From Liolophura sinensis (Eukaryota > Mollusca > Polyplacophora > Chitonida > Chitonidae), in contig NC_088303.1 of assembly GCF_032854445.1 (NCBI RefSeq), positions 31,503,501-31,567,500 of the forward strand: DNA of 64,000 bases. The letters run 5' to 3'. Under the pieces are notes generated by a model. The model was not told where the DNA came from. It did no database searches and worked only from the letters and a program-made list of their open reading frames with translations. Shown here piece after piece: positions 16,944 to 53,130 of this stretch. A program made the translations under genes and the position numbers. How positions within the stretch are numbered: the stretch's first letter is position 1; the number at the start of each line of letters is the position of its first letter.

Positions 16944-17003
16944 TATGTTACAATGAATGGCTGTGAAACACTGTGTGTTCCGGGCGCTGTTGCATAGGGC
17001 CAT

Positions 17004-19924
17004 GTCATAGGGCCGGACGTAGGAGTTTAAATTAGACCTCAGATCACGAGTAGGCCTGTCACAGCTTAGGGCATGCTATGGTTAGCTTGTCGTTACAGTC
17101 GGTGTCGGTAGAATGGACTGATGGCTTGAACCCACACAGACGTGATCCACGGTCTAAAAGATCACACCACTGAAAACAGGCTGGAGAGAGGACGATAGGG
17201 CAAGCCAGAGCCTAGCGACCGGGTACACAGGAAGATGATGACACCATCAACGTAAATAACCGTGAGTCGACAGAAAACAGGGTCAAGTTGCTAGGCTTTT
17301 CTTGACTCGCCTGAAAAAGTAATAAAAAAAAACACATCATAATTATTGAATGAGTTGCTAGGTACTTCGACCGATATAAAACTATGCCTTTGTCTAAATA
17401 TCATTAATGTATGATTCGGGCAATTGAGTAAAACCCCTATAGCGACTAAGACGCAGTACCGTTATTAGTCAAAGTCGCCTATGGTTTCACTGTACCCGGA
17501 ATATGAGGCGAAGAGACAGGCAGGTGGAGAAATGACTATACATAAACTGGCAGGTGGCATGAATGAGAATAGCGACGTTGCAGACGCAATTTGTAATAAT
17601 TATCATTTGACAAAAAAGTATTGAGAGTGTTTATGGTGCTAAGGACCTAAAAGTTACTAGTTATTCTCATTCATGACATCTACCAGTTTAGTAATTGTCA
17701 TTTTAAATGAAATTTTCCATTGTCTTCTTGACAGGAATAAGTTATTACAAAAAGCCACACTGGCAGTTAAATTTTGTAATCATTATTACAAATTGAAGGA
17801 TCAAACATTTATTCTGTCCTCAATACATCATTCAATGTAACTGCATGCATGTCTAATAGTATGAAGAGTGAGCCTCAGCTCAGATCACCAGCTTTGACCT
17901 AATTTACACTGTCCAAAACATTTATACATGAGGAAGAGGCCAGCCAAAATCCTGATGTGTTGCATGAAGATTAAAGGATGGAACATATCAGCTTTGTGTG
18001 TGAACTTTCCTGCCTCTAAAATGCACCTGCCCTTTCTATTGTCACTACCATGGTTTCCGCTTTGCAACAATGTCTCAGTAAACAGAGGCATTTTCTACCC
18101 ACCAAAGCATATGGCATTTGTGACATGAATGACAGCTCAGGAAATTATACCAATAAATTCTCAGCTTCATGCACCCTCTGTGTGTTGGGGATTCTTTGAT
18201 AGCTTACATGAACAGGTTTAAAACAAAAATTTTCCGTTTTGATCATGTTACAGCAGGTATTATGATGCAGTAAGATCTCCGTTTCTCACCGTGATTATAC
18301 CAGTCTATGACTGAATTAATTTAATTCTCAAAAAAATAAATACGGGATCTACGTAAGTGGGTTATGGCTATAGATTGAACAAGTCCTTGGAGGTACAGGT
18401 TTGTGTCCACGTTTCGTCAGTGTTTGTAAACATTTCACGCCGGTTATAACCAGAGCCAAAATTCTCAACAATTCAATTTCGCGAAATTAGGTGTGTGTGT
18501 TTTAAAATATGGCGTGGGGGAAAGAATTAGATCACTGAGAATTCCATGTTTTGCCGTCGTAAGACGCTGACAGCTTCGATGTTCACAAGGTTTCCTAGAA
18601 CATTTTATAATGATTTTTTCACAAAATGAGTTATCTCGACTCCCAGTGGAAACACAATGACACTGGTCACTGGAGAGGAAATTTTATATCTGGAAAGAGC
18701 GCCCGTCACCTGTAAACAGTGATATTCATAACGACTGGCGACAAAAAAAGAGAACAAGTAATTAAATGAAATAAAATCAAATAACTGGCATGTGTAAAAA
18801 CACACTCAAAAAAAGAATTTCGGTCGGAGCCTTTTTGAAGGGTCGGTAGCGTAATATCAAACATATAACATTTCAATTTTGGCCCTAAAGAATTAATAAG
18901 ACAAGTGACATTACACCTTTCTAGAGGGTGACGCCCCCCCCCCCCCCACCCGATTACATAGAAGTAAGAAGAAACCCGTAGCTGATAGGCGACCGACAGC
19001 AGATATTATGATGGGATGATTGTCATACTGGCGGGAGTGCGTGGCGCGAACGCGTAATCAAAACAAAACTTTCAGACAGAACTGATAAAGACGTCCTGCG
19101 CTCTACATGTAGGTTGACGTGTATGAATCCCTGTAAATTGCTACGTACCTGTGTAGAGTATAAAGTTGATTTATTGATTAAAAACTTGATTTATAGAGTT
19201 GCCAGAAGCATGCCAGATAAACAGTGTGGTCGTTTAAGTTTTTTCCTAAACCTTTTCCAAAATAAGGAATATACTATTTGTCGGTTTTTTTTATAAAGGA
19301 TAAAATTGGCAACGTTAACATTTTCTCACTTAACCTAGAGGATATCCAAAATGAATAGGCAAAGCAGGCATCCGAGTGTCAGTATACTTGGCAAGTCAAG
19401 TTGTAGACTAATAAATAAACATGTCGGCCTTTGATTTTCTCATTATTTTGTATATATATGTAAACAAGAATACCTACAATTACGATCAGATTCAACAAGA
19501 AGTCAGATAACGTTACCACAGGTTTCGTCGTGATAATTCGAAGAAGACCCCCGGGTGCTCTAACAAAGCGGCTGTACCTGCACCTCAACACCACATGTAT
19601 ACTGGAGCCATTTGAAAGAATTACTGCATGTTACCGCACAGGGCACGTGTATATGAGTCACAGTTTGACTTACAAAAGGCGATTCAGTGATTTGTGCACG
19701 AAGGACAGAAAAGTGTGACCTGATTCATTGAAACACACCTGTACCTCAGCCATAAGCGTCCTCTGTTGTCCGCATATTACGGGGTAGGCGCGCTACAATA
19801 ACATATATTAACGGCTTGTACTTGCAGTCATTGATATGAGATATTACCAGCAGTAGCCTAGCCTAGTCAGACAGGCCCTTTATACGATATCAGATTGTCC
19901 TTAAGTATGCGTGTAAGCAGGCCA
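17004..19924. other. Intergenic stretch upstream of the death receptor
   Basis: Holds the inverted repeat at 17.5-17.8 kb and a C-run near 18933. No exon was recognised; the receptor promoter and any 5' UTR exon would lie here but are not identifiable. Confidence 0.5.
17532..17796. repeat. Imperfect inverted repeat, possible MITE
   Basis: CATGAATGAGAATA (17562 region) pairs with TATTCTCATTCATG (17663 region), and AATTTGTAATAATTATC pairs with ATTATTACAAATT. It lies upstream of the death receptor start. Confidence 0.45.
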
Positions 19925-21872: not shown

Positions 21873-23965
21873 ATGGCCGAGGCAGTGAACATAGTCTCCA
21901 TGAACTGCCAAGGATTGGAAGAGGAAGGATGTTTTCCATTTTTTTTTTAGAAAGGAAAAATACTTCATTATTTGCTTTCAGGATACACATAGTGACTTCT
22001 TAAAAGCGAATGGGAACACGATGCATGGGTGAGCCTTTTCACTTCTCAATCAAAAGGCATAATAATTCTTATAATTCCCAATTTTGACTACAAAATAAAT
22101 AGTGTAGATACTGACCCACATGGCATTTATAATATTACAGACCTAAATATCCACAATATACAGATGTTTGGAGGCAAATGCATGAAGGAGACAGACGATA
22201 CACATAACGACGCAAGAATAAAAAAAAAACAAGCTAGGCTCGATTTTTTCTTGGTGTCAAAGGATATTTTTCAATATCTCTACAAAAGCAGAAATCATCA
22301 CAGGTTATAGGAGTGACCACTCCTCAGTAACACTAAAGTGTAAAGTCGTAAAAAGGGATTGTGGTAAGGGTTACTGGAAATTAAGCTGTTCACTCTTAAA
22401 ATACCAAACTTACATCGATTTAATAAAAAACACCATTAACCAAACAATAGACGAATATTGTCCCCTGGTTTACAACATAGAAAATATAAGAAATATTCCA
22501 AAGAACAGTTTTGCATTAGTGACCAGTTATTTTTAGAAAAACTGCTAATGAAACTAAGAGGAGAATCAATAAAATATTCATCAACAAAACGCAAGAATGA
22601 ACACAGGAGAGAAACAGAACTGGAGAAAGAATTTGAACTACTAGAAAACGAAATTTAAGACAATTTTATGAATGTACCTGATTTACAGCTCGACAGAGTG
22701 AATAATCTGAAAATACAATGAGAAAAGCTGAGAGAAAAAGAGATGGAAGGTATATTAATCAGATCAAAGGCAAACAAAATTGAATGGGGGGAAAAACCGA
22801 CAAAATATTTTTTGGCACTGGAGAAGGGAAATTATACAAACAAACTGATTTCAAAATTAACAATTGGTGACAGAAAAGAAATATATCAACGACGGAAAAT
22901 TTAGCGGCACAAAAAATTATTACTTAAATCTGTACAGGAAAACAGGTAAAGAGAGAAATGACCTTAGGGTTTTTTTAAAAGATATAAAACTAGACAGACT
23001 CTCGAATAGGGAGGCAGCCAAATTAGAAGGCTTACTGACCTTCAAAGAGTTAACGACAGCCTTGAGAAATATGAAAAACGACAAAACTCCAGGAGTGGAT
23101 GGTTTTCCGGTTGAATTTTATAAAATGTTCTGGAAAGACGCTGAACAATTTGTTCTAAGATCAGGCAATGAAGGTTTTGCAAAAGGCGAAATGTCAATAT
23201 GTCAATATCTCAAAAGCAAGAATTATAACATGCTTACCTAACCCAAATAAATGAACAGACAACTTAAAAACTGGCGCCCCATTACTCTGTTAAACGTAAA
23301 TTATAAAATATACAGTGCTTGTATTGCGAATAGACTAAAACTTGTCCTTAATTACATCATAAATGAAGACCAGAAAGGTTTTATCTCAGGAAGATGTATC
23401 GCAGAAAATATACGTCTAATATACGACATCATCTTCGAAACCAAAGATAAAGGAATCCCGGGACTACTATCTGTCGATTTTGAGAAAGCCTTCGATTCTG
23501 TCTAATGGAAATTCATAGAAGAAGTGCTTATGATGTTCAATTTTGGAAATGATATGAGATCAAGGATTAAATTGTTTTATACAGATATCTCTGCCCGCAT
23601 TCTTCAAAATGGCACTGTGTTTAATATTGGCAGGGGCTGTAGGCAAGGCAATCCCGTTTTTCCATATCTTTTTCTCTTATGTGCCGAGATTTTGGGTTCA
23701 ATGATACGAAGCAATCATAACATAAAGGGTCTATCCATAAACGACACAGAACATAAAATAAGCCAGTATGCTGATGATACTCAGATACTTTTGGATGGAT
23801 CTGAAAAGTCACTTTCGGAAGCACTAACTTGCTTAGGTACATATTATGAATACTCGGGATTAAAATGAACATAGAAAAAAACCAAGGCTGCGTGGATAGG
23901 ATCTCTCTCGGGCTCAAATGTAAAATTATGTCACTTGGTTAAATTAGATTGGGTCGAGAAACTCA
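21873..23965 (+). mobile_element. Decayed L1/Tx1-like non-LTR retrotransposon (endonuclease plus reverse transcriptase)
   Basis: Starts with an endonuclease N terminus (MAEAVNIVSMNCQGLEEE at 21873) and continues in shifted frames. QARLDFFLVSKDIFQYLYK lies near 22230, after an apparent internal deletion. Reverse transcriptase motifs follow: NDKTPGVDGFPVEFYKMFW (about 23080), WRPITLLNVNYKIYS (23270), QKGFISGRC (23370), SVDFEKAFDSV followed by a stop (23505), GCRQGNPVFPY (23635) and QYADDTQILLDGSEKSL (23764). A KAAWIGS-like stretch near 23885 fits L1/Tx1 elements. Stops and frameshifts make it inactive, and the 3' third is absent. Confidence 0.85.
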
Positions 23966-27049: not shown

Positions 27050-30000
27050 TGAGGAAATTGGCAACAGCCTGAAAAACTTTATTGTGATTTCTCACCTGTT
27101 TTAAAACCTTGTCTTCTGACGGGTTCCTAACACCAACACGAGTTAATTCTGTGTAAAATACGCGCCAATATGACGAAAAAGAACATGCGTAACAGTATCT
27201 TCTACAAAACATTCCTCACAAAAACCCGTGTCATGGAGATTGAATTTATGCACATAGCTGTTTGCTTCAATGTGACCAGACAAGAGTCTAAATACGAGTA
27301 TTTCGTCACAGCGACAGCTGAGAGAGAGATTGTAGCTTACAGAGATTTGAGGGTTGTGAGAATAAAAGAATCTTCCTGTAATAGAGTTATCCCATTCATT
27401 CCCATACTGGTATACATTTCGGTTTGACATAACTAATAGCTTGTTGTACAGACAACGGGATGGTGTGGGATATATTGGGTAGATCAAAGGCCTTTTTGGC
27501 CAGTTTGTCGGCCAACTCATTTCCGTCAACACCAATGTGGGCTGGCACCCATTCAAATGCCACAGATACACCTTGGTAGCCCAGTATAGTACAGATATAC
27601 AGTATTTCATACACAAGCGCTGCCGACTTATTCCAAATAAAGTTACCAAGTGCCTGTAAAGAAGTGTGTGAAAATAACAGCGCTAATCGGTCTTAACTCG
27701 AATAGATAGTTAAGACCACACAAGATTGCGGTAAGCTCTGCCGTGAACACGGAAACATAACCAGACAAGCGGAAAGATTTTTCATACCTCATTTCTGGAA
27801 AACACTTAGATGCGCCCACTTTGTTAGTGTCGGGGCATTTGGAAGCGTCGGTAAATACTTGTATGTACTTGTTCCACTTTGATTTAATGTGGTCCTTGAC
27901 ACATAACAACGATACATTACTGTTGTCCGTCTTTTTGACTTTAGAATGTAATTCCACAGAGACAAATGGGCTCGATAACTTCCAGGGAGGAAAATGAGGA
28001 ACACAACCAGGCTGAATAGAAATATCCCTGGCCTGACAGAAGTCAGAAATTTCGTTCGACCGTAAATTAAATGGCAACGCTTTCTTACTGTTTTTACTAT
28101 ATAACTGATCATAATATGAGGGTTTAAGTACAGACGTTGCAGAATTATTAATGGCAGACTTTAGCCTGAAAGTAAACTTTAGAACACGCAACCGACGACG
28201 TAAGTGGGTCGTCCCAAACTGGCCACCTCATTACAATACGCTGAGAGGAGTGGAGCGTAAGCCTCCAGTACAAATACGTAGTGCGGCGCACTGGATAGAG
28301 TCAAGTTTAGCTTTGAGACTGGCACACGCTGAACCATAGGCTTCGCAGCCGTAGTCAAGCCTAGGCCTAATTAAGGACCGGTAGAGTAGCAAAAGACATT
28401 GCCCGTCGGCTCCCAGATTCGCCCGGAAACACATCTCATCAAGTTAAGAACTTTCTTGCATCTAGTAATCGTATAATCTATGTGATTAAACCTATGTGTG
28501 GTAAGGCGCCTATCAAATATCACGCCAAGATACCGGAAAGACGAGGGTATTTTCACGGGAGAATTATTAAGAGAAACAGATACCTGCTTGATAGCTTTTC
28601 GTGTAAAGATGACAGCCTCGGTTTTAACTGATGAAAACTTAAAGCCCCATGTTAAGCTCTATTTCATGATGTCTTCCAAGCCCTGTCGAATGTACTTGGT
28701 GCAGAGTTTAAGACTCCTGGAACCATACCATACAGCTTTGTCGTCCGCAAATAATGTGCATGTCAGTTTTGGTGACAGTGCGTCCGGTAGGTCATTTATT
28801 GCAATATTAAAAAGAGATAAAACACTACCCTGGGGCACCCCATTCTCTACAGGTACTCGCCGAGAGTAGTCTCGACTGACTCTTACTTTAATAAAGCGGC
28901 CCGAAAGGAAGTTTTTCACCCACCCGAGCATTTTTCCGCCAATTTCCATTCTTCTCATTTTCATAAGGACACCAGTTTGCCACACCATGTCATAAGCTTT
29001 TTCTAAGTCTAGAAACACAGCAAACAAATATTCCTTATTACACAAGGCGTTTCTAATAGAAGATTCTAAACTGATGATATGGTCGGTTGTAGAACGTTTG
29101 TTTCTAAAACCGCTTTGAACTGGACTGAAAATATTGTGTTTGTTTAAAAACCACACCAAAAAAGCATTAATCATCCTTTCCATGACTTTACAAAAAGTGG
29201 CATTAAGCGTGATGGGCCTGTACGATGAAGGGGCAGTTAGATCCTTGCCGGGTTTAGGCACCGGTAGGCCTATGACGATAGCACTTTTCCACTTAAAGGG
29301 GAGTTTCATTTGGGTCCATTCCATATTGTATAACATTAATAACACCGTAAGCCACTGTTCAGGCAAGTTACACAACATAGAGTAAGCAAACCAAATCCTC
29401 TCCACGTGACGAGTCAGTGGATACTGAAAGAGCTTGCTTTAACTCTATTAGGGGAAAATCATCATGGATGGGCATTTCATCAAATGCAATATTTTCAAAA
29501 GAATGAGCGTTCTCTATTTCTTCCTTATGAGAGATAAATACAGGGCAATAATTCCTCGAGCTGGAGACATAGGAAAAGCTGTCAGCTAAAATGTTACATT
29601 TATCTGAATTGGTGACATATTCAGAATCGTTATGAACAATGGTGGGAATAGCTTTAGATTTCCCCTTGCCATTAATGGATTTAATTTGAGTCCAAACGTT
29701 TTTGACTGATGTATTCTCGGATAAATTACTACAAAACTACCACCAATGATCTTTCTGAGCTCGTTTGATTGTTCTTTGAGCTATTGCCTTTGCCCTCTTG
29801 TACAATGTAATATCATCGTAATGTCGTGTACCACGTGCTCGATTCTTGAGATGTTTACGTTCCCTAACGGCAGCAGAGCATTCGGTATTCCACCACGGAA
29901 CTGACATTTTGTATTTCATATCACCAGAGGATTTAGATATTGTCTTGATGGCTGCAGCGTTAATGGCGTCCACAATGTTGTCAGAAAATACATCCACATT

Positions 30001-36792: not shown

Positions 36793-37118
36793 CTAAGAAT
36801 TGGTAGGCATGGGGTTGACATCCGCTTTCGTGACGTCTTCACATGGTCCTGACTTGAGATCTGCAGCGCTGACGACATTTTCTGTATCCACCACGCATGC
36901 GTCAAGTTCCAACTTATTATTGTCTGCGCCGTCGTCTAGATAAACTATACTATCTCTGAAAGCACTGTTCACATAACAGCCGGAATCCATACTGGGATTT
37001 TCCACACAGGGATCTTCTTCACTTTCAGTCCGTGCTGGTATATCGTTTACCAAACTACCAGAGATCACCGATATGTTGATATCTTGTGGTTTTGTGGAGG
37101 GGCCGCAGGACCTGTTGC
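36793..37118 (-). CDS. mGluR-like receptor exon 9: cytoplasmic tail and stop
   Basis: 326 bp after acceptor TTTTCACAG, phase 1, ending in TAG at 36793-36795. It encodes an acidic, Ser/Thr-rich tail of 108 residues after [11 protein letters not shown], ending NPMPTNS. I see no Homer-type PPxxF motif. No clear AATAAA lies within 500 bp downstream, so the 3' end of the mRNA is not placed. Confidence 0.85.
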
Positions 37119-40100
37119 CTGTGAAAATTACATGTATAAAAGTATTGAGGAACAGTTCGGTCACTTTCGTCATGTTGGAAATGCTCCAGTGTATATAAAA
37201 CTTGTATATGACATGTCTTTTATTCGAAGCTGCAGATCTTACATTTTTGCTTCAAAGATATAGAATAAAAAAATTAAAAAAATAAATGAATAAATAAGAT
37301 AAATAAATAAAAGCAAACCAATGACCCTTGGGATGCTTAAGCCAAGTTGAAGCTAACCTTTTTTGCTACGTTCCGTACTCCATGGGTAAAAGCCAGAATA
37401 TAAGAAAAACCTACTTCAGGCATTATATCTTATCAAACCCTCTCTATGACATGGAAGGTGGCTTGAAGACCAAATCATATCAATAGCCATTTTGGGAAGT
37501 GGTATTCGTTTTTTTTTTAATTCGAAATATGTTGCAGTCGATCGTATTCACTTCCACAATAGAACACTCTTTTTGGTTTCCTTCTTGTGCGCACACGATC
37601 TGTCCTTTAATAAGGCTATGACCTTCTGGGGCACCTTGGGTCAAAAACCATTCTCCACAGCTTCGTTATTCTCAAATATTCCCGATCTGAATATCAAAAA
37701 TGCCACCAGATATCACTATTAGTGTGTTATTCAGGATGCTTCTATTCGATGGAACGCGTACACAAGCGTCAGGCGTGCACGCATCTTGAAACCAGTAGGC
37801 CCTAGTATAATACGGCGTAAAAAGTAGAGATAAATCGTGGCGTAAAGTTACCTGGCATTTTAAAAAAAAATAACCACAGGACAATAATCCGTCAGCAGGA
37901 GGGCAAAGCAGTTAAGTGCCAAACGTTTGGAAATAAATAATGAAGGCTGTTAGGTTTGCTGCCATTAAACACTAAATCGTCATCCGCAAATTACTGGGTG
38001 TAGATTCTTATTCTTAGTCATGATAAGTGTACCAATGTTCATCACGCGAAAACAATGCGATATGGTTTGAGTGAGTGCTTGGGGTTTAACGTCGTACTCA
38101 ACAATTTTTCAGTCATAAGGAATCCTTAGGGTACATGTACGTGTAATGTACGTGTAGCAGGACGGATTTCCACCGTTCTTTTATCTAGTGCCGCCCCGCT
38201 CGAGCCATTATACTGATACGGGTCAACCAGTCGTTGCACTATCCCCTTCATGCTGAACGCCAAGCGAGGAAGTTACAACTTCCTCTTTTAAAGTCTTAGG
38301 TGTGACTCGATCAAGGATTGATCCTGAATCTGCCGGTCCCGAAGCGGACGCTCTACCAACTGTGCTATCCGGTTTGACATCATTCGCTGGTAAATACAGT
38401 TGCAAATACAAAGCTTATTTTCATAATGCTGTGACTCCTTAAACAGATGTCACTGATTCTCCCATGTTTGCCTGTTTTATTTATGCACAATGTTGTATAT
38501 AAAAAGACACCAAGAAGATGAGTTTGAATTTACCTTTGTGGTCATCAGAGTGTGCTCGCCTGGTACTGGAGTGTTCGTCACTGCTTTTTGTCGTCACACT
38601 TCTGGCCATGACGGCCTCTCTGGTGTTCTTATATGGCCGCAGAATGACGATGTATACCTTAGGAAGGAACAAGCAGACTAGAATGACTGTCCCATTGACC
38701 GACAAGGACAACGAGAGAGTGGCCACCCTTAAGGCGTGATTACCATTGGTGAAGTAGATTGGCACGAAGGACAGCCACAGAATACAAGCGGAGTAGGCAC
38801 AGAAGGCTATATACCTAGCTTCGTTAAACCCGTCGGGGGTTTTTCGGGTTTTTACAGCATAAAATGTACACAATACGACCAAGAGAAAAGGATAAATCAA
38901 CCCGATCAAATAGGAAGCGTCATCGGACTGAGCGCAGATTCGGATATTGTCCGCCCTCGTCGGATACAGATGGTCCACATCCGGTAAGCGAAGAACCATC
39001 CAGGCGACGAGAATGATCAGCTGTACAGACGTTAGAGAGAGCAGGAACACGAGTTGTGACCGAGGAGTGATGTACTTTGTCTTTACGGTTCCCTTCTCTC
39101 CACCGTGGAATATCCGGGCAATACGGTTTGTCTTGATCAAAATGGCGGCATAACAGACGGTGTAAGAAAGTCCGAAAAGAAACCTCGTAAAACCACAAGC
39201 CACTGGCCTAGGCTCTGCGACGAATGCAAAAGTTGCTGCATAAGATAATGCCACTCCTGCCAACAACACAAAGCTAAGTTCTGTACCCGAAGCCTTAACA
39301 ACTGGCGTGTGTCGGTACTTGTAAAATATTACACCCATCAAGAAGCAGACGATCATACCAGCCAGTGAAAAGGCGGACAGGCCAATACTCAGTCCCTGGC
39401 CATGCGCCATATAGACTTCCGGTATGGACACACACGCGTTGTAGGCTGGGTTAGGTTTGTGCCCCATGGGGCAATCATGGCACTCGGACTTGGTCGGTAA
39501 GTATTGGTAAGACGTACAATTTACACACACCCAGCAGCATTTGTCCTGATCCGACATTTTCTTAGCTTCATTGCTCAAACATTCCCTTGAGCACACTGAT
39601 GAAGGATATTCCTGTTTTACCAAACTGAAGAGGTCAGCGGGCATGATCTTTTCCTCTCCATTTTCATCTGGCAACAGAAAAGACGGGAATCTAAAATCTA
39701 ATTCCTTGAAAATAATAAGAAAAATGACAGATGTGCGGTAAAAACCTGCTGCGCATGCGCTTTTGAAACATGCACCTATCCTGCGATCAAGAACAAGAAG
39801 AACCCCATGCACAACAACAACAAGAACAACAACATTCATTTTAAAGAGTGGCTTGTAGAAGATAAAAAAGTGAAATATAAAAATCCGCCACAAGCTCCAC
39901 GGTCAAAACACTGACCTTGTCACGGCTAACTTTGCCTTCTCACAGGTCGTGCAAATTGACAATGTTGATAAAAGCGTAATTTGGATAACTTGTTTTACAC
40001 TAGAATTTTTATCCGATATATTTCAGCTAGCGTGTAGTAAATTTGTGAAAGCTTTCCACTCACAGGTGTAATTCCCGATTTCAATCCACCTGTGTTGGCC

Positions 40101-41973
40101 ATTTTGATACCTGTAGCTCAGCAGACTGTATCGTGGTGGTCCATCTACCCTGTTCACAAAGGCGAAATCCTGACCATTGCTCCCTGTAGGTAGAAAATAG
40201 CTCAGTTATCAAGGAAACAAGATTGTTCAGTTCTGAAGAAAACCTCTTCCAAAGCTGGAGCTGAAATAAAAGGCCAGTGGAACGCGGGCATGTAGCTGAC
40301 AACTCCATATTGTTATCACATGCGAGGACTGACGAAGTTTCTGTGGTCCACGCAATATTCCCAATCTCACTGTAACTGCATTAACAGGTTAAGTCATATA
40401 AAATGTGTACCGGTGCTGTGAAAGGATGTGTACTCTTTAACACTGTGGTGTGTTTCTTCTCACTTGTCTCCTGGTCTCGGTTGTTCAAAGTAGGTTTGAG
40501 TCTTCAGTTTCTACTTATCCTAAAAACAATTTAAATATGAACTAAAACTGCTGATGTTATACTTTGACTTTAGAGAACAGCATTAGTTGCTGAGTTTCGC
40601 TAAAAATTTAAATATAAAATATGACTTAATACCAGGATTAGCTAATACACTTTCGAACAACCGGGCCCTGTATTCAGCTTTCCGTAAAATTCGTAAAAGT
40701 CATACTCGTTACCAAAATTGCCTTTCGTTAGTGACACCTAACGTCACAAACTCTATACACTGATATGTTGGACGTCCACATTATTGTAAATAAAATGCAG
40801 TTAGAATACTTTTTCTATTTTATATGATAATGTTGAACTCCTTCAGGTTGTGTTCTAGAGGAAGACTCTCGAGTGATGCAACAATTATTCAAAAAATAAG
40901 TGGCAAGCTGGCTAATGGGCGTGAAGATATATTTGTTTTAGAATAGCTGTACAGCAAAGGTTAGACCAAACTCAACGCAATAACAAAGCGTTGAGAACAG
41001 TCTCCACGAATAGACTACACTGTATTTCATAGCAGAATTTCATAACATCTCTCATGATATCGTATAGCTACAAAAAAAGATAAATTTCATTTATTACGGA
41101 TATATTATACTAAAACTTGTAAACAATTTCCCACATGGCCGTGTTAGAGACATGGTTTAAGGTAAACTCGATGACACTTCGTGTAAGATATCACTCTCCG
41201 TCAAAACATACTGAACTTCGCCCAATATGATCCAGCATGCCGTTGGTTATTTCATTATTATGACGTCACCCGGAAGAATGAGTTCTTGGTGTCGAAAACA
41301 AGCTTATGGGAGTTTAACATTATGAATTTTAAAGTGTCTTACCTGCATATTCTTTACAATAATATGGACGATCAGAGTATCAAAGGCTGGAGCTTTGCGT
41401 GTTACGTGTCACTGACAACAGGCAATTTTGGTAGCAAGTATGACTGATTTTACATAGAGCTCAATACAGGCGGCATACTAAACGAAACAGACTATAATAG
41501 TTGCTGGGATGGCACAATTAAAAGGTTCAAGTAGATTAAAATGTTCAAGTAGATTTAACTACATAACGCCAAAGTAAATGAAGCTATTATTTTTGACACA
41601 TATCTCATCTTTATCTCTATACTATATAGAGACTACACGTGTACGAAGCATCTAATCCGACCTCTGTTATGATGAAATATGGTAAATAATATTTCCTGGC
41701 ACATTCACCCAAAAGTCTAAATTAAATGTTAATTTAATTAACTTTATCACTTTATTCCAAAGATACCTGTGAAAGTGACATTCTCCATGTAGGCCAGCAG
41801 ATCTTCGCCTGTGATTTCTGACACGTCCATTGCCGGACACAAACCCCGAGTGTTTCCGCATTTGTCAGCATGCATGTTCTTCAGCGCATGTGCATACACC
41901 TGAACGGCATTTCTTACGTACGTCAGGGCTAAAAACTGACGATATCCTGTCAAAAGAAGACGTCACAAAATGA

Positions 41974-42057
<84 letters not shown>

Positions 42058-45000
42058 CTACCTTAGTATAGAATTTCACCTATAAACTTACCAATTTGCA
42101 TATATGGTAGAAATGCCGATATTATTTTAAGTTGGTTTAAAACGAAACAACCAAAGAAAAACCATCAACTTGTATTTATCGGCTGAAAATCGGTTGAAGA
42201 CAAGAGCTGAAGACAACTTGTTGTCCATAAATATGGTGTGCATACATTTATACGCCTCAAGTGTGTCAGTAACTGCCCAAAGGTCTGTCATTTTCCCAAT
42301 AAAACTCGGGGACATGGCACATGTATAAGTAAAAATGTCTTGACTATGGCGCTAAATAAATAAATAAATAAATAAACATAGACAAACGTCAGTTCTAATA
42401 TTGTAAAGAAGAGTAAAACATGAAGGATTATATAGACTGGCCCATGCAAAAAGCTTTACATTTCTGGCTTCGAAGGGCTTCTCGAATTTCATTGGTTGTT
42501 CCATGTATCATTTTATATTTACCGTTTTCTGCATCCAGAAGAACGTTTTCGGTACACTGTTTTGGGTATTTAGCCCTCAAACCGTTTGAAATGTCAGGCC
42601 AATGACACTGGAAATGGGATGCCCAAAACTCGCGAAACCATGGGTTCCGTGAATTTGACGTTGGTGTGAGGCTGGAAAAGAAAAGATTTTAATTATATTA
42701 ACTGGGAATAAATCCGTGTGTTGCGTTGTGCTGGATTCAACTCAGTGTCGAAGTTTTGCTATTTTTGCCTGTCTATCTTGTAAAACACAGTTATCGACGA
42801 GATAAGAAACTATTTCTCGTGTTAAATATGTATATATATATAAACCATATTTTGTTTTAACACGAGAAATAGTATATATATATACTGTAGATGAAACATG
42901 ACAAACTCAACTTGTTGATTTAGCTTACTAGTTTCACCGTATCACGACGGTTCTTCAAAGTTTTTTCAAATTTTTTTTTCTATTTCTTCAAATATATATA
43001 TATATGTATATATTACTTTCAACAACACGGCTTGGTGCAGTTAACTTAGGTCGTTTTTAGCACATAATAATTGTTCGGTGAAGTTCACCTTGTAAAATAC
43101 TGATCAAAGCCCTTAAGTTTTTTCCCCAGTGGTTGCACGGTGATGGCATTGCCAGCAATATGCTCTAGGCCCTTCACGACCGATTCACGACCGCTCCAAC
43201 CGTCACTGCCGATCCATATCAGTCCGCTAGCTTCTTCATTGCGATTGGCTGCCTCGAATAACTTCCGGGCTTGGTTGTAATTTGATATCACAACCACGAC
43301 TACAAAGTAATACAAATATTCTTAGACAAATATAAAGTCAAACACGATTACAACTATAAAGTCAACCAAGACTACAAAGTTATACAAATATTCTTAGACA
43401 ACTATAAAGTCAACCAAGACTACAAAGTTATACAAATATTCTTAGACAACTATAAAGTCAAACACGACTACAACTATAAAGTCAAACACGACTGCAAAAT
43501 GATACAAATATTCTTAGACAACTATAAAGTCAAACACGACTGCAAAATGATACAAATCTTCTTAGACAACTATAAAGTCAAACACGACCACAAAGTAATA
43601 CAAATATTCTTTAATGCAACTATAAAGTAAAGCATCAGATGAACAACATGAATCAATATTTTTTTAACCGAGTTTTGTCATCAATGAAAAGCACAGTAAG
43701 TCTGATGGCTGATTTCGGGTATAGTCTGAACTTTAACCAGCACTCCTGTCATTCACGTTCCATTAATAATAGTTGTCTATTTGAAAATATTTCATCGTGG
43801 ATTCCAGAAGAAAAATTTCATTGTCCCATTGAAGACTTTTGGGCGCCATTATCGGATATAGAGAGTAGGACGGTTAGAACGCATGCAGTTGGCAACTATT
43901 TTTCACCAGTGTTCCAACTTTAACAAATATGGCAATACATGTAAACAAACGTTTGTTTCGTGTGTATGTTTGTTACTTGAAGTTTTTGGTAACGTTGTAA
44001 GCCTACTATGGCGTCTTGTGCGTATATTCATTTTTGGGTAACATCCTAGTTAAACTTTCTTTGTTATGCCCCCCCCCCCCCCCATTTTTTTTTTTTGATG
44101 ACTTCACCTGCGGTGAGTTTTATTGGTGGAGTCAAAATAACAGTCCCGGGCAAATGTTGTGCACAACGCCAAGTACTGCATGGCAAAGGCCAGCACGTAA
44201 AGACGCACTCCTTCCTGATTGACAAAGCTGTCCACATCTATGACCTCTTTTGTTCTTTTCTTTAGCACCTTTACATGGACGTTCCTCCCACCATAATGCT
44301 GGCAGCCTTGGTATAAGTGAAGTATTCATGATTGTGGCGTAAAACACCAGTGAAATAAATACATAAATACATTTTAGGATCACGTGTGCTCATAAAACAC
44401 TTGAGTGGTACATAAGCTGTGCATCATACTATCAGAGAATGATCCATATGCTTTTGCTACGATTCAGACCTGAAAGCTCTTTGTTACAGGCTGTCAGAGC
44501 ATTCACTAACATACTGTTACAATATCCCTCGTGTCGTGTCATTAGAACAGGAGAAAGTGAAATATTAACCCCGAATATTGAACTTTTAAAAGAATTCTAG
44601 AAGAAATATTTGTTGCTAAACTATGAATTCTAATACAAAGCACGGAATGTTAGAGAAACGAACAACAGATCACCCAGTTTAAAGAATCGCTTTTGGTGGG
44701 AATTTGAAATTCTCACCTCGGGAGTTTTTCTTGCTGGTCAAATCTTCGACCACATGTTCCATTTCCAGATCCAAATCGTCTGTATGAGAGGAAGGATACC
44801 GTCGAATTTTTCTGGTCAATGCAAAACAAATGCCATGCTGAACAGCGAGCTTCTCTACCTCTCCGAACAACTCCGATCCGTACGTGGAGTCGTCATACAC
44901 CGCAGATACGTAACTCCAGCCAAACCGACTGCCAAACACAAGGTCAAGATTGACTTTTAAACAAGATTAAAAAAAACCAAAAAAACAACAACAACAAAAC

Positions 45001-48000
45001 AAAACCAAAACAGAAAAACGACACAGATGAAAGTGTAGAAAGGTGAAGGGTATCACGCGAGACAGACAAAACAGTGGACAGATGAAGGCAAAAAGACGAC
45101 ACAGATGAAAGTGAAGAAAGGTGGAGGGTAGATATACGAGACAGGTGGCATAGTAGACGGATGGAGGACAGAAAGGCGACACAGATGACGGTGAAGAAAG
45201 GTGGAGGGTACACAAACGAGACGTGTGACATATCAGACTAATGAAGGAAAGAAATACGACAAAGATGAGGGTGAGAAAGGTGGGGGTAGACATACGAGAC
45301 ATGTGACATATCAGATTAATGGAGGAAAGAAATACCACACAGATGAAGGTCAGAAGTGGAGGGTATAGATATACAATACAGGAGAATCAGAAGACTGGTG
45401 ATAGGCAGACAAGACAGATGGAAAAGCAGAGGATAGACAAACGCAGTAGATGAAATAAAACACAAATGTAGAGGATGGACATAAGAGACAGATGCAAAAA
45501 AACCTGATAGGTGGAGGATACAGATGCTGCAAATGAAAGAGCGGAAGGATGAGGGTATAAACAGATGAAAAAACATGTAAAGTACAGGTGCAACGACACA
45601 TATATGAAAAGACACACGGGATGGCAGAAATGAAAGACTGATGGTAACTCGTATGGAAGGACAGAGACAAGCACATACACTATCCCATACATACCAAAAC
45701 TTCCCTACACTCTTCAGACGTACCTCAATATCTCTATTATTGCCATGGCTTGAAATGTGTCAGACGGAACCGTTCTTGTGAAGAATGCATAACGCTCTTT
45801 GTTGCTTAGGTCTGGAGTAGTAGACAGGTAACTTACCTGAAGAATACAATTAGAAACGGAATGATTGGTTTTTTTTTAAATATCCAATATTGCTGTGGAT
45901 ATTGTTACCCTCCACTTTTCACTTAAATTTGGGCATGGGATTACGATGCATTTTCGTTTATTTATTTATTTGCTTGGTGTTTTACGCCGTAGTCAAGAAT
46001 ATTTTATTTATACGACGTCCAGGATCCAGGTCGCTGGGAGACCTTCCTACTTTGAGGAAGCCAGCATGAGCTGAACTTGAACTCACGGCGACCGAATAGG
46101 TGAGGGGCTTTTGAGTCTTTGCTGGCACGCTAACTATGCAGCCATGGAAGCCCCGATATAATGTTGATAACAGCACTTTCATTTTATGAGAAAACTCAAG
46201 AACCCGGTAACAAAAGTTAAGGTTATGCACTCAAAAGTTCAGATGATCAATCCCTGTGTACTTATATGAATGGGATTCATCTTTTTTGTTATTATTTTAA
46301 CAAATATTTATTTATTTATTTGTGTTTCACGCCGCACTCAAGAATATTTCACTTACGTACGACGGCTGCCAGCATCATTGCAGTCAGCTGATGCAATGTC
46401 AGGTAGGTTTTCAACAAGTCAAACAGACGGTCTCAACAGAGCATTTCACAGTGCTAGACCGGAAGTGCAAAATTGTAACCTTGCTCAAGTGAACTACGCT
46501 ATTTCCTGTATGGTGGACCGCTGGGAAATCAATCACTATCTTTCTCAGTAGTGTCAGGTTTTATTTGTGCACATCCGAAGAACATTTCGATTTACTGGCG
46601 ATCTCTAGCACAAGCGCTATAACGTTTCCACACGTACATACACAATCAGACAAAACAGGACAGGTTACGGGAGGGTGGGTAACTTCGACAGGTAATGCAC
46701 CAGTCTAGCTAACCCAAACTTCAGCAAGTAAACAATAAATAGGCCTAAATTGAGATCAGTTCACGGCGTGCTTTATTTTTCGAATTTGCGTCATGATTTC
46801 TTTGGGTAAATGTAAATTCTGTCACAATTTCATATATACAAACCTAGTTTGATACATGTAACATATATAGGAGTCTGAAACACCCACCTGCACGAACAAA
46901 AACTATTATCGCGAGTACACAAATGATGGATTTCGGACACACAAAACTGTAGCAGTTTATTCTATAACAGATCAAAGTTTAAGCGGACTAGTATTACCCT
47001 TTACCTGATCCTCAACACAAGTGTGCTTCCATAGTTCGTTAGTATATGGGTCATACAGAATATTAATCCAGTTATATGCTATATGTCACGCCCCTTTTGT
47101 AGGCGCAGTGACTATCTGTGTGGACTGCTGGCTGGCCTCTACAGTGCATCTGTAGAACTAGTAAACAACATTAGTCATTGATAAATCACTGGTTGGATGT
47201 GTATCAGAAATTGTTAAGGGAAAGTCAACGGTACTTACACTGAAGCACTGTGACTAAAGTACAACATCAACACGGTATAGACATCGCCTCACTAGTACTG
47301 AGTTATAATTTGAAAATATTTAAAACAATATTCTGACTTCATTAAAAACATCTTTGTCCAACAGGTACAAGTAACTAAACAAAGAACGTGATTTTTAATA
47401 GCACGCTGTTTTAATTTCGAAGTCCTTTAGCTGTATTTTCTTTTAACAGACCTCCTAATCGCAGATCTTAAGCTAGTCATAAGCTAGTCTATCCATTTTA
47501 ACTTGTGAGGTACAATAATAGAATTTTTACACGAGATTTTTATTTTCGCTTTCCGCCATATTGGGCAGACAGCTACAGTAAAGTAGTGCAGGCACATGTA
47601 CGCCCACCACAAATACAGCCTAACACGGTATACAACAGGCCTATGTACGACGCGTATGAGAGATAGTAATAAACAAGTACCCTAAATGACCTCAAATTTC
47701 GCCGGCAAAAGTTCATGTTTAGACGCAAATAAATGTCACAAAATATTATTTTTGGTGCTAAAACTTACAGTTTTCCAGTACAACATCACCCCATGTTCCA
47801 AGCAAACCTAAAAAAAACTTTTCTATACTGAGCAGAGCTCTCAGAATGAGGAAAAATGGGCAAGGTAGTCATGGACGAAATTTAAGGTCATTTAGGGTAC
47901 CATTTAAACTATACTACTCACAAAAAACGCACATTTTGTTACACGTGAGGCTATACATATCGACAGCCGATACTAACTATTCTCAGTATTACGCTATTTG

Positions 48001-51000
48001 CAGGTTTTAGCCGAGTGCTTTGGAGCATTATTTATTACTGTATAGGTCTATAAACAAAATCCGGTACGTGCTGTTCACTACATCTGTGTTTTCTACGTGA
48101 ATGTTGAAAATAAACAAGATTATCAATGTTGAAAAATCGGGTTCTTATCCCCCGAGACCGAAAAGTGAATTAACAATAACCTAGACACCATTTTAGTGAA
48201 ACTGTATGCGAGGGTGTGTGATGGGAGGCAAACAAAAGTTAATTTTTGTTAACAGTTTTTAAAAAACAAAGTTGTTATTTACACACCAAACGCTATATAT
48301 CTAGTCTGAATCACGGCAACAAATATGACATCTTGCTGGTACACGGTGGCTCTCAGTGTAATCCGAGCCAAGCGCTGCCGATCCAACTGGGCCGGGCTTT
48401 GGGAGGTACACACCGACACAGTTACCGGGCTTTGTTTGTCAACGTGACCCAACGCGTCAACAACACAATACACCTGTTTACCACAAACTATATCCCTTTT
48501 ATTTGCATATTTGCATATCTCATGTCGGCTTTTCTACACTTAAAACAAATAAGTTCGTTCAGTGTGTCGGCCTCTACAAAAGACGACTGGCCAAAACTAT
48601 ATATATATATGAATTCATTTGTTTTGCAGATTCTTTACGTTGCCCGTATGTTAACAGATTTGTGTAAAATATGTATAGGCTTACACGTCATTAACGTTTC
48701 AAAACCAGCACGTTTGGAACATTACTAATTTACCTTTGATCATGGATATCAAAATGCAGCCCATACATCAAACACCTCCTACTTATCCATAAACTTGACT
48801 AAGTTGATATTTGTGCTAAAATCGCTTATGAAAAAGAAGTCTGGGTGTAACTTCACAGGTGTGCTCTTGAAAAAAAAAAGGAAGAATTATTTATGAGTAA
48901 GTTTATGCTTGAACGCTGTGAGAAAGGGTAGAGTGGACTAGGGAGTGTATGTAGGCTTTGGATTTTCCGTCAGATAAAAGCAATCTTTCAATCATATGAC
49001 TTGTCTTCTTATGGCAGGGAGAGTTTATCACGCCTAAGTACTGCAGCCACTGAATAATCCACCGAAGACACCAGACATGACACCCTACCCAGTCTCATTA
49101 TACTATGCTGCTTCCTTGCTTTAACCACTGACTGCTGAGCGCTAAGTGGTGTAGCAACAAGTACCATTTTAATCTTTGGTACATGTATATATAGTAAAGG
49201 TGAACTACTCAGCGAAGCGGAAAAGCTGGTGCATGAGGTATGTAATATACTTGGCACAAAAAACACTTTTAGCTAGACGCGCAGACAGCTTTGTGTAAAG
49301 TTAGTGAGTCTGTGATTTTGTCGGTCCATAGCAAAGACCTGCATATTCATGGGCCCCATAATACAGCCCGGGTTCTCGAGACTACCATCAGCTTCAGAGA
49401 AGTCACTGATTATCTCCAGATTTTGTCTGTTGTGCCTTTTTGATACATACATACAAATAAAGGATAACAAAGTACATATATATAGGCCTATATATATGCA
49501 CACACTCGTACACAGAGGCTATTACCTCCCTACATGTAGGCCTGTTGAAAATCTCGTAAAGCACAATGTATCTCTTGGAGTGATGTCCGAAAATGAAAGT
49601 GAAACGACAAACTTGTTTGGTATGACTATTTGCTTCGTCGTATTCCAGCCTTTTTATCAAACATCTAATTATAATAGTCGAGACATTAACCTTCATTGAT
49701 AATTCGTTACTATAATAGCGTTTATTAAGGATTTAAGTCAATTTCAGTTTTATTTCCGTCATATCACCAAGATGTGTTTTTACAGGCTGGATCAAGTCCC
49801 ATGTTATTGTTCAGACCCTTATAGTAATGATGCTGCTTTAATGAAACACTACGCCCAAAACACCAGACATGACGTGGCGTCCGAGACAGCATATATATGT
49901 ACATCTACTGACAACAGCCCACATTTCATCATGCTGAGCATAAAACAAGGAAGATTGCCAAATCAAAGTCCAACGCACTCCCAAGCTTGGAATTGAACCC
50001 GGATGTGCCCGCTTACGATATGGACACTCCGCTCACTCAACTATCGCAAGGTGGTCAGCCTTGTATAAATTGCAGTTAACTTCATCGTACTTTTTTCAAA
50101 ATCTAACTGTGCATAAGCCATGTTGTTATGGGGCGTGTAATTTGTTACAGTTAAAATTACGGTTAGAATAAAACGGCTATCGGAGTGTTCCTTAGACGCC
50201 ATGTATAAGAACATACTCGTTCTGTCTTGAGGCGTTCTTGTGAGCTCAGCTTTAAAACACAGGTAAGTGTTTACACAAGTGGACCGGGCGTGTGCAGAGA
50301 TAATGGCATTCCGTTAGCACAATGGATATTATGAATGATCTGAGCGACATCTGGACATAATACACGTCAGAACTGGATTAGCGACAAGGGCGCTAAAGTC
50401 TGTATTTACAACATACATAACGGCACATGAGGAATCCTCTATCGATCGCTCTTTCCAAAACTGGATCAATATTTCCAAATCTCAAGGCTGATGCTTTGTA
50501 GAAAATTTGCAGTTTCCTGATATAACCAGCGTGCAGCAAAATTTCACACCCACGTCCCTGTCCGGTGTACACCCTGGATGCATACCCAATTTATGCCCTT
50601 TACTTTCAAACCAACAGATTTTTGTGTGCCTTGCACTACAAATTAAAAGTCTTTGAATGTGTATTTTCTTTCCTGAGATTCCAATACAATGTAAGGGTAA
50701 CGTTATTTTAAGCAAAATTTACCCTTAGATAAAAAAAGAGGATCTCCAACGAGCGACCCTGTAGTATCAAATTTATTAGACGCGAGTAAGAAAAATTTCG
50801 TTTGTTTCGAACCTCTGACAAAAATCTTGTGCCAAAAGTAAAAGGAAAAATCCTTTTTGTGAAAAAATGTCTCTTGATTAATAAATTTGATACTCCAAGG
50901 TCACGAGCTTGGAAATTATGTTTATCCCATAAAATGAACATCGCAAAAAAGTACAAAATTATGTCTCACATCAGCGCGATTATTTTGTGTTGTGGCTCTG

Positions 51001-53130
51001 TGTTACAGAAGGGCGTGCAGAAGCGCGGAGCAATTTAAGGATGCGACGAGGCGAAAGATGATGGAGGTTATGGAGAAATGAACAACTTCTGATGATAGCC
51101 AGAAATTAAAGTTTGTCAGAGAAAAGAACAATCTGTACACCACATGTTAATTTGTGAATGTCAATAAAACCCGGTTTTGGACTTGTGAGGCCCTGATACA
51201 GAGTTTTGCATTAAGTCTCATGTTTTGGGAGCAAGTCAAGCATGATGACACCAGTGGCCCGGATGTCCGCCTTCTCCACTAAGGACATCACATTTGCGCG
51301 GGGTGGACCAGTATTCCACAGTAACGCAGTGTGGAAATTGGAGAGGTTGGGGTAATATATCTGACGTCATTGGCGTTTGTGCTTGGTTGCATTCCACACA
51401 AACTTGATTGTAATTACACCATGGCAACATATGTCTTTTTGCTCTTGATATGTTTACAATCAACTTTTCCTGTGATATAGCTTTGTGCAATGAACTACCA
51501 GTCCCCAAAGCATATAGCCGACACATAATTTGGAAATTGCACACATTCAGTTAAAGATCCCTGCATGGATGGTCTCGCGTCGTAGTTTATGATGCGAACA
51601 AAATCGTCGATAAAATTATCTGCACCTTAATTAAGCAATGCTCTTACAGATCAATGGTACCGACAGGAATGGTCGGTTGGTTAATTGATTCTGTGTCGTT
51701 AAGGATAAAGAGGACGCTTGTGCAGGATGCCATAAAATAGAGACCCATTTAGACAATATTTATTTACACTTACATTTTTAATGGAACGCTTTGATGGCAG
51801 AATGGTTGGAGCGTCCGCCTCGAAGTTAGGAGACCTGGGATCAAATTCGGGTCGGGTCATATCAAAGACATTAAAAAAGGTAGCTTGGCGCTCAGCAGTG
51901 AGAAGTTAGAGCAAAGAAAGAGTTGGCCCGGTGTGAGTATAATGTGACTGGATTGGGTCTCATGTCTGGTGTTTTCGGCACGATGCTTCATTTGCGGCAA
52001 CACTACGGCGACATTGATTCGCCCTGCCACAAGAAGACACAATATATATACACGCACTCAATGATACCGCGCCGATATATGACTGTAACACTGCCCAAGT
52101 ACGACGTAAAACCCCAAGCATAAGTACATGTTTAAAAAAGTAATGATTCCCAGTACTATACTTCTGTGCTGTGTTATCATGTTGGGTCTTACTGCGGATC
52201 TCCTTTATTACAAATAGTCTCATCGAACTGAAAAGTGCTATCCCTTAACGGACATGGCTTGTATAAAAACAGAATAGTAATTAGATATGACAAATATGAC
52301 GATAATGATGATGTAAATGATGATGAAGATTAGTGGCTATGGTGATGATGCTTTGAAGATGGTGATGATGGTTATAACATTTGTCACACTTCTAAAAACT
52401 ACGATAATGATGATTTGAGACATATGTACACGATTTAATGATAATGAAGATATATAGAATGATAATGATTGTGTAATGATGCATATATACGGAGTGAGTG
52501 ATGCATATGAGTGCTTGGGGTTTGATGCATATATACGTCACTCTAGAACCCTACCTGTGGAACTTTAAACAGCCTTAGGAAGCTGGCTACCTGTGTAGAG
52601 ATACTGCTTGCAGCTGCGCCCACCACTCCTACCACCCGGTCAAGGTTCCCTGTGCCCATCCTCCGGGGAGGGGAACCATCAGAGCACTGAAGTGGCAACT
52701 GCCCCGGGAAAGTTAAAGTTTCCGTCAAGTCACGCACAAACTCCACGGAGCGCTCCAGGGCGACTGTGGCGCTGTCGCAGGTATCGGCGATCAGTGCCCC
52801 AAGGGTGAAGCCCGGCAGAAATCCACTGGAATTGATCTCATCCAAACTAAACATCATGGCTTCCATCATCTGGATTCCGTCTTGATCTTGAATCGATCCA
52901 CAGACCTTACTCTCGTGATTGTAGCCGTGGACGGGGAAGAGACCGCCGAGAACGACATCGCCGCTGTAGTTGGCCAGAGTCCCGACAAAGCGGTCGGCAC
53001 CTCTTCGGCCCACGGTAGGCAACGGGTACATCCATAAGCAAACAACAAGCAAGTAAACATTAGAAGCAAGCCTCTCTGTTGTCACAGCGATGACAGGTTT
53101 GCCAAAACTCAATGACAGGATACTGGCCAT
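36793..53130 (-). CDS. Metabotropic glutamate receptor-like class C GPCR, complete nine-exon gene
   Basis: Plasma-membrane G-protein-coupled receptor with an extracellular Venus-flytrap amino-acid-binding domain. Coding exons on the minus strand are 52555-53130, 45724-45836, 44717-44928, 43089-43299, 42523-42671, 41767-41946, 40064-40183, 38534-39667 and 36793-37118. They total 3021 nt, giving 1006 residues, and every GT-AG junction agrees in phase (0,2,1,2,1,1,1,1). The order is a signal or hydrophobic segment (about residues 24-41), the flytrap (to about 540), a nine-cysteine domain (C546-C599), seven membrane helices (about 610-866) and a 140-residue tail. Family hallmarks include [37 protein letters not shown] and FVPIYF. 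The start ATG at 53128-53130 has an in-frame TAA just upstream. Residues aligned to mGluR1 Tyr74, Arg78 and Lys409 are Asp84, Met88 and Ala427, so glutamate is unlikely to be the ligand. The gene resembles insect mXR receptors in this respect; exact orthology is not established. Confidence 0.93.
38066..38375 (-). mobile_element. SINE family 2-type element, with tRNA-like head, downstream of receptor exon 8
   Basis: The + strand starts GAGTGCTTGGGGTTTAACGT. The minus-strand head is ATAGCACAGTTGGTAGAGCG followed by TCCGCTTCGGGACC. It lies in the last intron of the mGluR-like gene. Confidence 0.65.
38534..39667 (-). CDS. mGluR-like receptor exon 8: cysteine-rich domain and seven-helix domain
   Basis: 1134 bp encoding residues 521-898. 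It starts in phase 1 after TGTTGCCAG and ends at AAAG|GTAAAT. The cysteine-rich domain has the family's nine cysteines, including CCWVCVNC. All seven helices lie in this single exon. Conserved stretches are [28 protein letters not shown] in the second intracellular loop, [19 protein letters not shown] and [17 protein letters not shown]. The reading frame is intact throughout, so the gene looks functional. Confidence 0.96.
40064..40183 (-). CDS. mGluR-like receptor exon 7
   Basis: 120 bp, phase 1 at both ends (ACCTACAG|GG and ACACCT|GTGAGT). It encodes [20 protein letters not shown], then [19 protein letters not shown], the end of the flytrap domain. It corresponds to the mGluR stretch with G..V.F...GD.P.RY.I..YQ. 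The correct reading frame is not the longest one in this interval. Confidence 0.88.
40670..41475. mobile_element. Long inverted repeat of about 800 bp within receptor intron 6
   Basis: Left arm about 40670-40915 and right arm about 41233-41472, inverted, separated by about 310 bp. Shared blocks include ACCAAAATTGCCT, GTCAGTGACAC and TCCATATTATTGTAAA. Relatives of one arm occur at 3225-3350, 35455-35690 and 59478-59583. This is probably a foldback or MITE element. It lies between exons 6 and 7 of the mGluR-like gene. Confidence 0.65.
41767..41946 (-). CDS. mGluR-like receptor exon 6
   Basis: 180 bp, phase 1 at both ends (TTTTGACAG|GA and ACAG|GTATCT). It encodes [20 protein letters not shown], then [16 protein letters not shown] and MENVTFTG. 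It matches the helix that carries Lys409 in mGluR1; Ala427 occupies that place. An exact TA microsatellite lies 33 bp from its acceptor, inside the intron. Confidence 0.92.
41979..42055. repeat. (TA)n microsatellite in receptor intron 5
   Basis: About 38 perfect TA repeats, 33 bp beyond the acceptor of exon 6. Confidence 0.97.
42523..42671 (-). CDS. mGluR-like receptor exon 5
   Basis: 149 bp, acceptor TTTTCCAG|C in phase 2, donor AACG|GTAAAT in phase 1. It reads [20 protein letters not shown], then FQCHWPD and [13 protein letters not shown]. The motif RNPWF..FW..F.C is typical of mGluR flytrap domains. The frame stays open for about 90 nt past the donor, but the phase match to exon 6 favours splicing at 42523. 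Confidence 0.9.
42806..42875. repeat. Perfect hairpin with TA-rich loop in receptor intron 4
   Basis: ACTATTTCTCGTGTTAAA and TTTAACACGAGAAATAGT are perfect complements around a TATATA-containing loop. Confidence 0.7.
43089..43299 (-). CDS. mGluR-like receptor exon 4
   Basis: Acceptor CTTTGTAG|TC in phase 1, donor CAAG|GTGAAC in phase 2. It encodes [20 protein letters not shown], then [12 protein letters not shown] and KGFDQYFT. Asp333 of GSDGW matches mGluR1 Asp318. A tandem repeat array abuts the acceptor and repeats the splice-site sequence (see findings). Confidence 0.93.
43292..43628 (+). repeat. Tandem repeat of 46-60 bp abutting receptor exon 4
   Basis: Units carry TACAAATATTCTTAGACAAC, TATAAAGTCAAACACGACTA and CAAAG. 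The first unit overlaps the exon 4 acceptor and the first bases of the exon. Confidence 0.85.
44278..44372 (+). mobile_element. SINE family 1 3' fragment in receptor intron 3
   Basis: CTCCCACCATAATGCTGGCA through GCGTAAAACACCAGTGAAAT plus AAAT-type tail. Confidence 0.65.
44717..44928 (-). CDS. mGluR-like receptor exon 3
   Basis: Acceptor TTTGGCAG|T in phase 2, donor CGAG|GTGAGA in phase 1. It begins [19 protein letters not shown]; Tyr246 of STYGSE matches mGluR1 Tyr236, an alpha-amino-group contact. The exon ends TSKKNSR, just before the VVVVIS beta strand. The mGluR1 Lys286 position appears to be Asn298 here. Confidence 0.92.
44960..45690 (-). repeat. Degenerate purine-rich tandem repeat in receptor intron 2
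   Basis: Period of roughly 80 bp around GACACAGATGAAAGTGAAGA, AAGGTGGAGGGTA and GAGACA on the + strand. It is pyrimidine-rich on the transcribed strand, producing long Ser/Leu/Cys-rich spurious ORFs. Confidence 0.75.
45724..45836 (-). CDS. mGluR-like receptor exon 2
   Basis: 113 bp, too short for a simple ORF listing. It reads [13 protein letters not shown], then [20 protein letters not shown], and ends in phase 2 at GAG|GTACGT. It carries the equivalents of mGluR1 Thr188 and Asp208 (Thr198, Asp218), both alpha-group contacts. The acceptor is TTCTTCAG followed directly by GTAAGT, so the exon starts with a donor consensus (see findings). Intron 1 upstream is 6.7 kb. Confidence 0.9.
45956..46154 (-). 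mobile_element. SINE family 1 copy with internal deletion, receptor intron 1
   Basis: Starts (TTTA)n and GGTGTTTTACGCCGTAGTCA. The middle (GTGGGAGGAAACC...) is lost. The head relic ends CATGGAAGCCCC. Confidence 0.7.
46304..46379 (-). mobile_element. SINE family 1 3' stub
   Basis: (TTTA)n, then GTGTTTCACGCCGCACTCAA and TACGACGGCTGCCAGCATCA. It is truncated after 76 bp. Confidence 0.6.
49014..49160 (-). mobile_element. SINE family 2 body fragment
   Basis: AAGACACCAGACATGACACC and TGACTGCTGAGCGCTAAGTG match the bodies at 49800 and 56700. Confidence 0.5.
49795..50055 (-). mobile_element. SINE family 2 copy
   Basis: ACACCAGACATGACGTGGCG in the body. The minus-strand head spans the B-box-like TTCAATTCCAAGC region and the complement of ACTCCGCTCACTCAACTATC. 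Confidence 0.5.
50745..50914. repeat. Short foldback element in receptor intron 1
   Basis: GTATCAAATTTATTA (50763) and TAATAAATTTGATAC (50880) are exact complements; the match extends to about 36 bp imperfectly. Possible small MITE. Confidence 0.5.
51785..52125 (+). mobile_element. SINE family 2 (second tRNA-headed family), full copy in receptor intron 1
   Basis: The head TGATGGCAGAATGGTTGGAG (A box) and GGGATCAAATTCGGGTC (B box) are followed by GTGTTTTCGGCACGATGC. The 3' end is AAGTACGACGTAAAACCCCA. It ends in AGCATA without a long A tail. Confidence 0.65.
52270..52480 (+). repeat. GATGAT-rich imperfect microsatellite
   Basis: GATAATGATGATGTAAATGA, GATGATGAAGAT and similar over about 200 bp, near the 3' side of receptor exon 1. 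Confidence 0.75.
52555..53130 (-). CDS. mGluR-like receptor exon 1: signal region and lobe 1 of flytrap
   Basis: Encodes residues 1-192. The exon ends KVPQ at donor CAG|GTAGGG, phase 0. A possible GTG start 12 nt upstream is in frame, but the ATG at 53130 directly follows an in-frame TAA region and is preferred. The hydrophobic stretch sits about 24 residues in, so the signal peptide has an unusually long N-terminal part. The segment [16 protein letters not shown] aligns with the part of mGluR1 that carries Tyr74 and Arg78; both are replaced here (Asp84, Met88). GAAASSIS keeps the serine equivalent to Ser165 (Ser175). Confidence 0.92.

Follow-up and report, generated by a model that had tools for sequence, protein, structure and literature searches.

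A predicted class IV metabotropic glutamate receptor in the chiton Liolophura sinensis that keeps the amino-acid core of its pocket and lacks two basic side-chain contacts

The window analysed here is a stretch of 64,000 nucleotides from the chiton Liolophura sinensis (NC_088303.1, positions 31,503,501 to 31,567,500), and its minus strand carries a complete nine-exon gene (53130-36793) predicted to encode 1006 amino acids in an uninterrupted reading frame with a TAG stop codon at 36793 (Table 1). All introns are GT-AG and the exon phases are compatible. Every junction between the exon 2 donor and the exon 9 acceptor, both included, was reproduced by a spliced alignment guided by the same 1006-residue protein; its DNA input began just upstream of exon 2, which left the exon 2 acceptor and all of exon 1 outside this test. 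Because one of two tandem-repeat arrays crosses the 3' splice site of exon 4, look-alike acceptors are present in several of its repeat copies. Elsewhere in the window there are an open reading frame with a tumour necrosis factor (TNF) receptor repeat and two reverse transcriptase fragments, and an Rfam scan of the window at gathering thresholds gave 0 matches.

Table 1. Positions of the receptor exons and of other features in the window
Feature	Position	Strand	Content
Exon 1	52555..53130	minus	Start codon, N-terminal segment, lobe 1: Asp84, Met88, Asp119, Cys149, Ser175
Exon 2	45724..45836	minus	Thr198, Asp218
Exon 3	44717..44928	minus	Tyr246, Asn298
Exon 4	43089..43299	minus	Asp333, Arg338; acceptor inside tandem-repeat array
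Exon 5	42523..42671	minus	Flytrap segment
Exon 6	41767..41946	minus	Ala427 (Lys409 position)
Exon 7	40064..40183	minus	End of flytrap domain
Exon 8	38534..39667	minus	Nine-cysteine domain and seven transmembrane helices
Exon 9	36793..37118	minus	Intracellular tail, stop codon
Tandem-repeat array	43291..43628		Spans 3' splice site of exon 4
Tandem-repeat array	45010..45365		Lies between exons 2 and 3; repeat period about 80
Open reading frame	16434..17075	minus	TNF-receptor cysteine-rich repeat (PF00020, 2.8e-9)
Reverse transcriptase fragment	28662..29438	minus	PF00078
Reverse transcriptase fragment	23506..23865	plus	PF00078

The gene product is a class C G protein-coupled receptor of the metabotropic glutamate receptor (mGluR) type, in which a flytrap domain (PF01094, residues 88-504, 3.1e-67) is followed by a nine-cysteine domain, a seven-transmembrane (7TM) domain (PF00003, residues 611-857, 2.2e-68) and a tail. 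The NCD3G profile reached 38.2 bits at residues 542-592, below its cut-off of 38.9; all nine cysteines are present and align in 11/11 of the receptors compared. Cys149 is likewise a cysteine in mGluR3, mGluR5, mGluR8 and the calcium-sensing receptor CaSR, and is absent from the same-genome models A, B, E and F. Among the best 60 of 109 matches to solved structures, mGluR3 (8tqb) ranked first with 643 bits and an E-value of 6.5e-192, which excludes chance resemblance, and mGluR4 (617 bits) and mGluR1 (E 1.5e-166) were also found. The domain order is common to the other vertebrate mGluRs and to mGluR3, with which identity is 39% in the flytrap and 41% in the cysteine-rich domain and 7TM; however, the positions diagnostic of glutamate side-chain binding are Arg and Lys in mGluR3, whereas they are Met and Ala in the window gene.

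Pocket residues were compared in an alignment of 11 rows, comprising the window protein, six receptors of the same genome (A-F) and the solved chains of mGluR3, mGluR5, mGluR8 and CaSR. It was the mGluR5 chain and not mGluR1 that was aligned, and the offset of 10 residues follows from the mGluR1 numbers of the original prediction; the 8t6j chain index differs from the mGluR5 numbering by a constant 5. Against mGluR5, mGluR3 and mGluR8 the alignment is gap-free beside residues 84-88, 175, 198, 218, 246, 333 and 427, while gaps adjoin 298. The residues named beforehand (Asp84, Met88, Ser175, Thr198, Asp218, Tyr246, Asn298, Asp333 and Ala427) all lie at those numbers in the assembled protein. The contacts to the alpha groups of the amino acid (Ser175, Thr198, Asp218, Tyr246 and Asp333) are retained, as had been proposed; the Ser165, Asp208 and Tyr236 positions are identical in 11/11 receptors, and the Thr188 and Asp318 positions are kept in 9/11, the window gene among them. 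Two further mGluR1 ligand contacts, Ser164 and Ser186 (PMC5372683), correspond to Ala174 and Leu196 and vary in mGluR3 and mGluR8 too.

On the side-chain side of the pocket, the proposal that every glutamate contact had changed is borne out in part. The Arg78 position is Met88 in the window gene and Ala in its paralogue A, and the Lys409 position is Ala427 and Gln, respectively; both positions are basic in 5/11 rows (B, D, mGluR3, mGluR5 and mGluR8) and neither is in the window gene, so that the split between a retained amino-acid core and the loss of Arg78 and Lys409 stands. The substitution of Lys286 by Asn298 is present but not diagnostic, and was dropped as evidence of lost glutamate binding since mGluR3 and mGluR8 have Asn there, as do the own-genome class I receptor and paralogue A. 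Because the Tyr74 position holds Tyr, Arg or Lys depending on class, its change to Asp84 (Gly in paralogue A) is notable only for its acidic character. The Arg323 position is still Arg in both genes, as Arg338 in the window gene, which we take to be the counterpart of mGluR1 Arg323 in number and role. At the Trp110 position, where the mGluR1 side chain presumably faces the pocket, both genes have Asp (Asp119 in the window gene). Elsewhere in the genome, a class III mGluR (C7:46594000-46630200) retains Arg78 and has Leu at the Lys409 position, within an exon.

The retained Arg338, found in both genes, raises the alternative that the receptor still binds glutamate, with this residue and perhaps other basic residues in lobe 2 holding the side-chain carboxylate. 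The own-genome class III receptor, with Leu in place of Lys409, still groups with mGluR8, which would be in keeping with such tolerance if that receptor binds glutamate. Arg78 and Lys409 are both lost in the window gene, however, the Tyr74 position has become acidic, and the Drosophila receptor DmXR, which by description has the same split, reportedly gives no glutamate response (PMC2695807). We therefore consider continued glutamate reception quite improbable, and a receptor for an alpha-amino acid other than glutamate, or for an analogue of one, the most likely reading.

The same genome holds clear members of the established classes, namely receptor B in class I (mGluR5, E 1.4e-299), receptor C in class III (mGluR8, E 6.5e-250) and receptor D in class II, which clusters with mGluR3. 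Paralogue A is a second divergent receptor on the same contig as the window gene; a preliminary, partly wrong model of it matched mGluR7, mGluR4, mGluR8 and mGluR3 about equally, and a later, revised model was used in the tree. The models of the paralogues are predicted and locally uncertain, an assembled receptor at C3:13.39 Mb was excluded from the 11-row tree, and receptor counts in this genome are lower bounds, with hit lists that hold scored candidates only (46/95 in one). In the maximum-likelihood tree, where a single solved structure anchored each class next to a single own-genome receptor, the window gene fell outside classes I-III and paired with paralogue A (support 100/99). The class I, II and III pairs are starred (100/99, 95/94 and 100/98, respectively); the fork at which the window gene and paralogue A meet class III, at 88/91, is unstarred. 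Receptor E is long-branched and loosely placed in the tree, and joining it to the window gene and paralogue A was disfavoured in an approximately unbiased (AU) test (p 0.015, for groups named after the tree had been seen).

The original prediction had left two options, an orthologue of the insect mXR receptors or an independent loss of glutamate binding. Such a loss by a member of class I, II or III would fit mGluR3 being the best solved-structure match (643 bits against 617 for mGluR4, among the best 60 of 109 matches) and the unstarred class III fork. However, trees constrained to place the window gene in class II, I or III are worse by 42, 41 and 33 log units, respectively, and AU tests, whose groups were chosen after inspection of the tree, disfavoured all three placements (p 0.0007 for class I, 0.0002 for class II and 0.0009 for class III), so that independent loss within those classes is unlikely; the genome also has a separate receptor for each of these classes. 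We regard this alternative as extremely improbable. The mXR-like option is favoured, since the gene and a similar paralogue both lie outside classes I-III, which matches the description of class IV.

Other observations were made in the course of the genome survey. The receptor at C12:11522359-11530149 is mGluR-like and long-branched, with Tyr in place of Arg78 and Ser in place of Lys409; its 734-residue open frame covers the flytrap, the cysteine-rich domain and some of the 7TM. At C10:24604500-24622800 and its neighbours in 24.52-24.65 Mb, arrays of about five flytrap domains, each array followed by one 7TM exon in the same orientation, appear three times among the hits. In the one array that was read, the first flytrap is split and the other four each occupy a single open frame of about 490-535 residues; by eye, each exon seems to continue the last strand of the preceding one, and no signal peptide is obvious. 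The arrangement suggests either a class C receptor bearing several tandem flytraps or flytrap cassettes spliced to one 7TM; no such tandem-flytrap array was found by title among the literature matches listed. Contig C99 has seven COX1 matches, one of them partial, at intervals of about 15.5 kb, resembling a concatenated mitochondrial contig, and C632 has one; each match contains 7 or 8 in-frame TGA codons.

Taken together with the residue pattern, exclusion from classes I-III is the basis on which we assign the window gene, with high confidence, to class IV of the mGluRs, the bilaterian class that includes insect mXR/mangetout, as one of at least two such genes in this genome; class IV proteins are known here by description, and we would also infer orthology to DmXR itself. 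Class IV mGluRs have been reported in all bilaterian phyla examined except vertebrates, insect receptors included, and are described as lying outside classes I-III and marked by a split in which backbone contacts are retained and Arg78 and Lys409 replaced (Ramos-Vicente et al. 2018, PMC6307864). The window gene, compared by description only, does not depart from this account with its Met and Ala; the Gln of paralogue A at the Lys409 position is one small departure from a published summary that gives non-polar or acidic residues there (PMC6307864). The gene itself is thus expected from published work on class IV. DmXR, again compared by description, keeps the amino-acid core, lacks the gamma-carboxylate contacts and is activated by L-canavanine, an agonist of plant origin with low potency (EC50 0.5 mM, PMC2695807). 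In fly taste neurons DmXR requires Galpha-o, and canavanine taste is also attributed to GR8a/GR66a (PMC3646046); DmXR has further been described as responsive to an amino-group ligand of insect heads, and ascidian receptors without gamma-carboxylate contacts have been described (PMC9138782). The planarian GSMD001419, with conserved alpha-group and changed gamma-group residues (PMC3261222), by description resembles the window gene in this split.

The receptor would sit in the membrane as a dimer; its flytrap would close on a non-glutamate alpha-amino acid, or a close analogue, held by Ser175, Thr198, Asp218, Tyr246 and Asp333, and closure would be relayed through the cysteine-rich domain to the 7TM. 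Coupling to Gi/o is probable by analogy to DmXR and classes II and III. Class C receptors can function as unequal dimers, and two divergent paralogues on one contig could accordingly be read as receptors with no ligand of their own, acting as heterodimer partners or being constitutively active; yet the contacts that hold the amino acid are retained in both paralogues, and we judge this very unlikely. In a ligand-binding receptor, side-chain choice would be set by the distal pocket, formed by Asp84, Met88, Asp119 and Ala427 with Arg338 retained. It is possible that Asp84 and Asp119 favour a basic side chain, an idea that is weakened by Gly at the place of Asp84 in paralogue A and by the retained Arg338, and weakly helped by the Asp common to both genes at the Trp110 position. 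A broader proposal, which we put forward tentatively and think rather unlikely, is that the distal pocket is acidic in class IV receptors of this lineage, through Asp119 in both paralogues and additionally Asp84 in the window gene, and that these receptors detect a basic amino acid or some other ligand that bears an amine, each paralogue being tuned to a different ligand of this sort.

The open-access literature searched yielded no ligand of a class IV mGluR outside insects, and no class IV ligand beyond canavanine. An intact class IV pair, if the assignment holds, in a genome that also has clear receptors of classes I, II and III, would offer a clean set for pocket comparison and for a ligand screen.
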